Shown here: in pieces, positions 9,437-9,777 of the stretch
Layout of the letters: every line of letters starts with the position of its first letter
How positions within the stretch are numbered: the stretch's first letter is position 1
The notes under the pieces: generated by a model
Seen by the model: the letters and a program-made list of their open reading frames with translations, nothing else
The model's database searches: none
Told to the model about the DNA's origin: nothing
Origin: Thalassolituus maritimus
Lineage (GTDB): Bacteria > Pseudomonadota > Gammaproteobacteria > Pseudomonadales > Oceanobacteraceae
Direction: 5' to 3'
Length of the DNA stretch: 64,000 bases
Assembly (NCBI GenBank): GCA_913019975.1
Contig: CAJWBH010000003.1
Span: forward strand, 124,001 to 188,000
Translations under genes and position numbers: made by a program

Positions 9437-9723
9437 TTTCAGGCACAAAAAAACCAGCTCACTGGCTGGCTTAATTGTTGGTTGCGGGGGCCGGATTCGA
9501 ATGGGGGCGCCTAGCTCGACGACTGCAAGGTCGGCAACCGCACTAGATTTCAGGCACAAAAAAACCAGCTCACTGGCTGGCTTAATTGTTGGTTGCGGGG
9601 GCCGGATTCGAATGGGGGCGCCTAGCTCGACGACTGCAAGGTCGGCAACCGCACTAGATTTCAGGCACAAAAAAACCAGCTCACTGGCTGGCTTAATTGT
9701 TGGTTGCGGGGGCCGGATTCGAA
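9437..9723 (-). repeat. 111-bp tandem repeats carrying the tRNA-fMet 3' end
   Basis: Two complete, essentially identical 111-bp units (9437-9547 and 9548-9658) are followed by the start of a third, which runs into the intact tRNA-fMet gene. Each unit, read on the minus strand, contains the last 23 bases of the tRNA including CCA (plus-strand positions 9479-9501 and 9590-9612; the genuine one is 9701-9723). Each then has the same rho-independent terminator hairpin (9447-9469, 9558-9580, 9669-9691) and a 55-60-base unit-specific segment. On the opposite strand that segment resembles parts of the tRNA body (TAGCTCG and AAGGTCG). The period is divisible by three, so long ORFs run through the array. 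Confidence 0.9.
9669..9691 (-). terminator. Rho-independent terminator of the downstream tRNA-fMet
   Basis: On the minus strand the hairpin is CCAGC-CAGTGA-GCTGG followed by seven T residues, about 10 bases after the tRNA CCA end. Exact copies occur in the two downstream repeat units at 9558-9580 and 9447-9469, so read-through transcripts would meet three terminators in series. Confidence 0.85.
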
Positions 9724-9777
9724 CCGACGACCTTCGGGTTATGAGCCCGACGAGCTACCAGGCTGCTCCACCCCGCG
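9701..9777 (-). tRNA. tRNA-fMet (CAT), copy nearest the repeats
   Basis: This 77-base initiator tRNA reads CGCGGGGTGGAGCAGCC at the 5' end, has the anticodon loop CTCATAA, and ends with encoded CCA. Initiator hallmarks are present: an unpaired C1-A72 at the top of the acceptor stem, and three G-C pairs in the anticodon stem (GGG/CCC). It is identical to the second copy 95 bases upstream and is followed by a terminator. Confidence 0.98.

Follow-up and report, generated by a model that had tools for sequence, protein, structure and literature searches.

The initiator tRNA locus and its tandem array

Two tRNA-fMet genes lie in tandem on the minus strand of the window, the whole 64,000-nucleotide stretch of Thalassolituus maritimus DNA analysed here. 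Judged by recJ, T. maritimus DSM 24913 is the nearest named relative (97%). The first gene (9949-9873) and the second (9777-9701) are downstream of a promoter-like site, and the second is followed on the same strand by a tandem array of two complete 111-bp units and a trailing partial unit. The features of the locus are:

9963..9991, minus strand: promoter-like site TTGACA-17-TAATAT upstream of the first tRNA-fMet gene, a consensus match only (10/12 positions)
9873..9949, minus strand: tRNA-fMet gene 1 (CAT), not directly followed by a repeat, tail the same as that of gene 2
9701..9777, minus strand: tRNA-fMet gene 2 (CAT), the gene adjoining the copies
9673..9694, minus strand: intrinsic terminator T1, immediately 3' of gene 2
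9590..9700, minus strand: complete repeat unit 1 of 111 bp, comprising T1, a spacer and a T-arm-interrupted tRNA 3' end
9628..9634, minus strand: GTCGTCG, the retained variable-loop/5' T-stem strand of unit 1
9614..9627, minus strand: 14-nt T-arm insert AGCTAGGCGCCCCC of unit 1, the same as AGCTGGGCGCCCCC of the tRNA-Phe units in three further Thalassolituus genomes
9590..9612, minus strand: tail copy 1, TTCGAATCCGGCCCCCGCAACCA, 23/23 identity to the gene
9562..9583, minus strand: terminator T2
9479..9589, minus strand: complete repeat unit 2 of 111 bp, identical to unit 1
9503..9516, minus strand: 14-nt T-arm insert of unit 2
9479..9501, minus strand: tail copy 2, 23/23 identity to the gene
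9451..9472, minus strand: terminator T3, within the trailing partial unit
9409..9478, minus strand: trailing partial or decayed unit, identical over 43 nt at its start, then a degenerate remnant with the end CCCCACAACCA
8608..9321, minus strand: short-chain dehydrogenase gene (PF13561/PF00106), downstream and in the same direction

The array was predicted from inspection of the sequence and is real. Tandem Repeats Finder reports a repeat at 9418-9723 with a period of 111, 2.8 copies and 97% matches, and comparison of the window with itself shows identity at offset 111 over 9436-9723. The two complete units differ at 0 of 111 positions. Exact copies of the 23-nt tRNA-fMet tail occur at 9479-9501 and 9590-9612, besides the tails inside both real genes. 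A terminator in each repeat was likewise correctly anticipated. After each CCA copy come the same leader and terminator as behind the gene, with T1 (9694-9673), T2 (9583-9562) and T3 (9472-9451) following the gene and the two copies, respectively, in the order gene-T1-unit-T2-unit-T3. A terminator scan returned 9 terminator-like sites against 0.8 expected, a count that includes overlapping and opposite-strand sites. By eye, the stretch GTGCCTGAAAT or a close variant stands 3' of the T-run of the fMet terminator in the window (9409-9700) and in several genera, and a similar stretch follows the fMet terminator at loci without repeat units as well.

The period of 111 is divisible by three, as originally pointed out, and reading frames of 148 and 111 aa accordingly run through the array. 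The property holds in the window and is not kept in relatives: periods are 111 or 112 in T. maritimus, 117 in G002, 121-123 in G010 and 84 in G261, with spacings of 124-136 in G009. A constraint from coding is thus not maintained. A protein-coding repeat like tpr at E. coli tyrT was rejected since the periods vary and the reading frame is not kept across relatives. Over-counting or mis-joining of the array during assembly could be suspected of a draft of 34 contigs with two identical units. However, the array sits inside a contig of 222,661 bases, a comparison assembly of T. maritimus has three diverged extra copies in the same place, and the single-contig genome G002 has two copies of its own, which leaves an artefact with next to no probability.

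Repeat units as interrupted tRNA 3' halves

In the sense orientation each unit is an altered 3' half of the tRNA, with the 5' T-stem strand of the tRNA itself, a 14-nt insert AGCTRGGCGCCCCC, and the sequence from the T-loop to CCA. Genome comparison gives the same make-up, with GGTCGTCG representing the tRNA's own variable region and 5' T-stem strand, followed by the insert and by T-loop to CCA. The original prediction had instead likened the remaining 55-60-nt segment to parts of the tRNA body on the opposite strand. This likeness is at chance level, with a local alignment score of 19 against 15.9 +/- 3.1 for dinucleotide shuffles of the antisense comparison (p 0.18; body alone, p 0.16). Alignment of the segment to the sense tRNA gave p 0.16 and 0.10 against shuffles.

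The insert is shared beyond the window and beyond the initiator tRNA. In an alignment of units, GGYCGTCG occupies the 5' T-stem strand in 12 of the 16 fMet rows. The insert AGCTRGGCGCYCCC is present in 14 of all 19 rows (three of the 19 being Phe), the remaining rows having a related or a different insert. Copies of the tRNA-Phe 3' half in three Thalassolituus genomes carry the same 14-nt insert at the same T-arm position, and the Phe-type unit reads GTGYCGGTG, AGCTGGGCGCCCCC, then GTTCGAT...GGGCACCA. Searching 44 genomes of the family for AGCTRGGCGCCCCCGTTCGA with up to three mismatches yielded 22 matches in 11 genomes. The reversed pattern matched 9 times, so single three-mismatch matches mean little without the adjoining tRNA tail. 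Judged by their surroundings, 21 of the 22 matches lie in units of the fMet or Phe type or in what remains of such units, and one (L239) lies in coding-like sequence. T-arm alteration with differing inserts recurs in G002, G261 and genus g4, the insert being hairpin-like in G261 and ACTTTCT-like in g4. Among eight Thalassolituus units, the mean pairwise difference is highest in the spacer (0.294), followed by the terminator (0.121), the insert (0.105), the tail (0.083) and the segment before the insert (0.049).

Distribution in relatives and concerted change

Tail copies behind initiator tRNA genes occur patchily in the family. We searched 700 nt downstream of each fMet gene for its own tail with up to 3 edits. 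A search for such units in related genomes had been proposed at the outset. At least one copy occurs at 16 of 41 testable loci, corresponding to 14 of 35 genomes and 6 of the 8 genera. The 3-edit matches of G042 and G043 and the decayed unit of the window are not counted as copies (uncorrected tally, 19/42), and G261 stands outside the 16/41 because copies were the criterion by which it was picked. The 44 family genomes include nine that could not be used: G007, G028, G030 and G035 gave insufficient sequence, no gene or N, and in G014, G018, G019, G021 and G032 no fMet locus was scanned. The other 25 of 41 loci have no tail copy within the searched distance, which indicates that the array is dispensable; genus g7 has none and g5 offers no testable locus. 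Remnants without a tail occur at the fMet locus in G008 and G011. Copy number ranges from 1 to 4 among relatives, and the last units are sometimes decayed. Across the order, a strict unit pattern found units in at least 5 of 293 genomes; four of these belong to the family, and the reversed control gave 0. The pattern misses the window's own unit (GCAGTCG), so 5/293 is a lower bound. No tail copy is present within 700 nt behind metV and metY of E. coli K-12.

Copies follow the gene that they adjoin. At all eight loci where the gene departs from the commonest tail (seven in the family and G261), a copy carries the variant of its own gene, and in G002 (GGTCGTAG) and G261 (GGTCGTTG) the 5' T-stem strand matches the own gene as well. 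Copies are thus either re-made from the gene or converted by it. A full-length tRNA-fMet copy with the T-arm insert was seen in G009 (L148:1202-1289; Rfam tRNA score, 37.9 bits), apparently a recombinant between a gene and a repeat unit. Under our own rule, a terminator follows the gene at 12 of 17 copy-bearing loci and 18 of 33 copies, with no terminator after the other 15 copies, including every copy in G010 and G040.

Such patterns might arise through recombination alone. Unequal exchange between short tail repeats could duplicate the stretch from tail to terminator, and the copies could then be homogenised by conversion and tolerated, with extra terminators at most shielding the downstream gene. 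Patchy presence at 16 of 41 loci, copy numbers of 1 to 4 with decayed last units, the identity of both window units and terminators recurring in series would all be expected of such a by-product. A 175-bp variable-number repeat is also listed in a Salmonella rtT RNA in the available part of PMC2658671. Plain tandem duplication does not account, however, for the recurrence of T-arm alteration with other inserts (G002, G261, g4), nor does this reading explain the 14-nt insert, which is common to five genera and two tRNAs although the spacers differ. The terminators also differ in part, being similar in g1, g3 and g6 (even without units) and of other kinds in g2, g4 and g8. We regard a plain recombination product as a substantial possibility somewhat short of an even chance, and as nearly as likely as the processing-cassette reading set out below.

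Tail copies elsewhere in the genome and RtT RNA

Tail copies occur downstream in 4 of the 27 tRNA regions (49 genes) of the same genome, three of the regions having just 140-361 nt of downstream sequence. The four regions are those of fMet, a further CAT tRNA, Arg(ACG), with two copies at +157 and +334, and Ser(GGA), with one. Behind the CAT tRNA, which from its likeness to ileX we take to be probably Ile2, is an array with three tail copies (L278:110-500; G000:C8:145209-), one unit of which has an intact T-arm and a replaced anticodon loop. Rfam identifies the Arg and Ser units as RtT RNA (RF00391), at 50.8, 50.2 and 70.9 bits with a cut-off of 45. By eye, the tRNA-Ser RtT unit at L293 (G000:C20:16350-17250) is followed by the tRNA-Ser 3' end in inverted copy and then by a further terminator-like stretch. 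The fMet array was also considered as RtT RNA and this was rejected: a covariance-model search with RF00391 gave no match in 9300-10000 even at E<=10.

Among 369 gammaproteobacterial genomes, RtT was found at E<=0.001 in 66 (24 above the cut-off), and among the 44 family genomes in 13 (9 above the cut-off), there behind Ser and Arg. Of 30 class-wide loci, the best-scoring ones at one per genome, 27 have an upstream tRNA, namely Gln (10), Ser (9) or Tyr (8); these types are biased by the choice of best-scoring loci and by the tRNA-Tyr-like 3' end of the model. The tail of the unit is identical to that of the upstream tRNA in 16 of the 27, one base off in 5 and two or more off in 6. The T-loop is also where the tRNA is broken up in the E. 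coli rtT unit, which reads GGTTCGA, insert, AATCC...CCA. The E. coli argQZYV operon has tail copies and no RtT match above the cut-off, hence the kind of tRNA-linked repeat (TLR) is wider than the RtT model.

RNA structure of the units

A conserved RNA fold of the fMet and Phe units is hardly supported by modelling, for which MAFFT seems in addition to have misaligned the rows of G009, G038 and G003. The consensus fold of 19 units has -3.8 kcal/mol and a double change in one of 7 pairs, and a T-stem-like helix of 5 pairs is retained in 15 to 19 of the 19 rows. A minihelix model, in which the 5' arm TGCGGTT-GCCGA pairs with the copied tail, was rejected for these units, giving p 0.10-0.30 in the window and T. 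maritimus and failing in relatives. Pairing of the 5' arm with the tail was compared with single-base shuffles in 13 fMet/Phe units and 24 RtT-type units. The latter comprised 21 of the 30 class-wide loci, two of the three E. coli units and one Arg unit; 9 class-wide loci were omitted because of a decayed tail, no upstream tRNA, tRNA overlap or near-duplication. None of the 13 fMet/Phe units beat the shuffles at p<0.05 (window unit, p 0.10). Among the RtT-type units, the 5' arm was complementary to its own tail beyond shuffles (p<0.05) in 16 of 24 and not in the other 8, and in 21 of 24 it paired with its own tail better than it did, on average, with the tails of other tRNAs. The RtT units of the same genome gave p 0.007 for Ser and 0.52 for Arg, the latter indicating that complementarity of the 5' arm is not universal in RtT. 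The minihelix model is upheld for the RtT family only.

These results bear on a trans-acting role of the kind first proposed for the array, competition for processing enzymes or translation factors. Read-through RNAs ending in CCA would titrate the enzymes of tRNA maturation, initiation factors or an RNA-binding protein. The 5' arm fitted to the tRNA tail in many units of the RtT family would agree with such a role, as would the interaction of the E. coli 5S rRNA-linked TLRs rrA, rrB and rrF with Hfq and CsrA, described in the available text of PMC8144298, and the report of an RtT sRNA among non-coding RNAs up-regulated in cold in Thioalkalivibrio (PMC8092127, in part). Yet the fMet units have little structural support and no RtT core. 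In the same text of PMC8144298, the 19 TLRs from tRNA operons of E. coli score below 0.01 as CsrB/C-like RNAs, and the claim of a part for rtT in starvation is said to have been retracted since. For the fMet array we consider action in trans unlikely.

Neighbouring genes and integration-like fragments

Beyond the short-chain dehydrogenase gene an HPPK (folK-type) gene is encoded on the other strand, and from this place beside it we take the dehydrogenase to be folM-like. Formyl-tetrahydrofolate is required for the formylation of Met-tRNA-fMet. The folM-like and folK-type genes adjoin the initiator tRNA genes at 8219-9432 of the window, possibly by coincidence. Judged by eye, the same kind of gene also lies behind the fMet locus of G004, which has no units. 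The neighbour of E. coli tyrT is purU.

Fragments resembling the ends of integrated elements were noted at several tRNA loci. In G001 (C11:18724-31889; L226, L350, L351), about 11 kb of other sequence lies behind tRNA-Phe and before a tRNA-Phe 3' fragment at 20857-20911. This fragment is followed by a truncated 248-aa frame with DUF6538, presumably an integrase N-terminal domain, and then by a Phe-type array starting with GTGTCGGTG. A Phe-type repeat unit thus appears, from its position, to serve as the right-hand att end. At L116, L117, L138 and L140, fMet 3' fragments follow similar sequence with the end TTCTCATAACC, with CGAAG missing. These fragments adjoin fMet genes, either intact or split, and resemble the ends of elements integrated at the anticodon loop. 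Two same-strand fMet 3' fragments in G005 (C29:2232 and 38213; L106, L107) are about 36 kb apart and resemble island ends.

The repeat units could, on this pattern, be remnants of att sites, or decoys on which integrases that target tRNA genes would land. The truncated integrase-like element of G001 has the tRNA-Phe 3' fragment (C11:20857-20911) on one side and the first Phe-type unit, beginning at GTGTCGGTG, on the other, and a complete and a partial tRNA copy at two ends are the usual mark of integration in the available part of PMC9897764. However, the units include a terminator and recur in register, and Pfam shows no integrase domain in the 12 window proteins at 5028-15743 (two of the 12 being without any match). 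Searches for the units in phages and plasmids (7 and 21 records) returned tRNA-tail matches and short stray matches only, and a phage or plasmid origin was rejected. In viral contigs there were 73 pattern stretches; the one with two matches (L206), which alone was inspected, is repetitive and coding-like. Attachment-site relics are a very improbable source of the array.

Proposed read-through and processing

We tentatively favour the reading that the fMet units are cassettes in which read-through RNA is processed and terminated, and that recombination keeps them alike; we hold this view with slightly less than even confidence. The order gene-T1-unit-T2-unit-T3 and the leader copied behind each CCA fit a read-through cassette with cutting at the copied tail and stepwise termination. 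Most transcripts would stop at T1 and a minority would read through. The copied tail with its downstream leader would then be cut by the enzymes that mature tRNA 3' ends, RNase E followed by 3' exonucleases, so that read-through RNA is trimmed and stopped stepwise at T2 and T3 ahead of the downstream gene. The products would be RNAs about 110 nt long whose 3' end resembles that of a tRNA, and the insert would prevent the unit from forming a normal T-arm. Unequal exchange might multiply and shrink the units, while conversion or fresh copying might keep the tail gene-like. Cutting of the units by tRNA-maturing enzymes is about as probable as the cassette reading as a whole. That the array was selected for such a role rather than merely tolerated is a little more doubtful. 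Against the cassette reading are the near-absence of a conserved fold, the patchy presence, and the 15 of 33 copies without a terminator.

A far-reaching extension would be that T-arm-interrupted tRNA 3' halves form a self-renewing functional class in Gammaproteobacteria that refits to any upstream tRNA. Its CCA-ended mimics would titrate maturation or formylation of the initiator tRNA, tying the supply of fMet-tRNA to read-through into a folate-related gene. We think this highly unlikely.

The sharing of one T-arm insert by fMet and Phe, with copies tracking their own gene, provides a comparative handle on TLRs, to which RtT behind Tyr, Gln and Ser in the class and behind Arg and Ser in the family adds. 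Such a comparative set predicts where RNA ends should fall and which parts to delete. As processing cassettes, the units would show how tRNA operons under strong transcription cope with read-through. As mere products of recombination, they would offer a natural archive of concerted evolution beside an essential gene.

Comparison with known systems

Repeats of this general kind have been recognised for decades. The available text of PMC8144298, citing Egan and Landy 1978 and Rudd 1999, counts 22 TLRs at ten loci of E. coli K-12, in one to five copies, with a 3' end of 18-19 bp identical to the upstream tRNA or rRNA gene. The same text dates their first description to 1978 and presents them as without known function before its own work on rRNA TLRs. 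Three of the latter are placed there behind 5S rRNA between two terminators, made by read-through and starting at an RNase E site, and its authors suggest that RNase E itself recognises the copied 3' end. Like the fMet array, E. coli TLRs lie behind a stable-RNA gene in the same direction, share their 3' end with that gene, and can lie between terminators. Both fMet units have 23/23 tail identity, against 18-19 bp in E. coli, and the two copies are directly behind gene 2. Unlike in E. coli, the host gene in Thalassolituus is an initiator tRNA, and the insert is 14 nt. From these likenesses the fMet array very probably belongs to the TLR kind.

Other systems resemble the array in part. The parallel with E. 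coli tyrT/rtT in the original prediction survives insofar as both are tRNA-linked repeats with the tail of the upstream tRNA, and fails insofar as the fMet array is no recognisable rtT homologue. RtT, for which the accessible parts of PMC7657543 and PMC8250186 give covariation support and a tandem GA motif, is likewise tandem and an interrupted tRNA 3' half ending in the tRNA tail; it has a much longer core and often a tail-complementary 5' arm, whereas the fMet units have neither. Elements belonging to BIMEs have been likened to rtT (PMC2965389, in part). In contrast to the fMet units, rrA, rrB and rrF copy the end of 5S rRNA, occur one per operon and have CsrA binding both predicted and tested. 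Duplicated att sites, like the fMet units, are partial tRNA genes with an intact tail, but the fMet units are tandem in register with a terminator, have an altered T-arm and adjoin no element that we could see. Among the matches listed in our search of largely freely available literature, no paper concerned an initiator tRNA array or the T-arm insert. The kind of repeat is already known, and what is new in the fMet array is the initiator tRNA, the short T-arm insert and a unit made without the RtT core.
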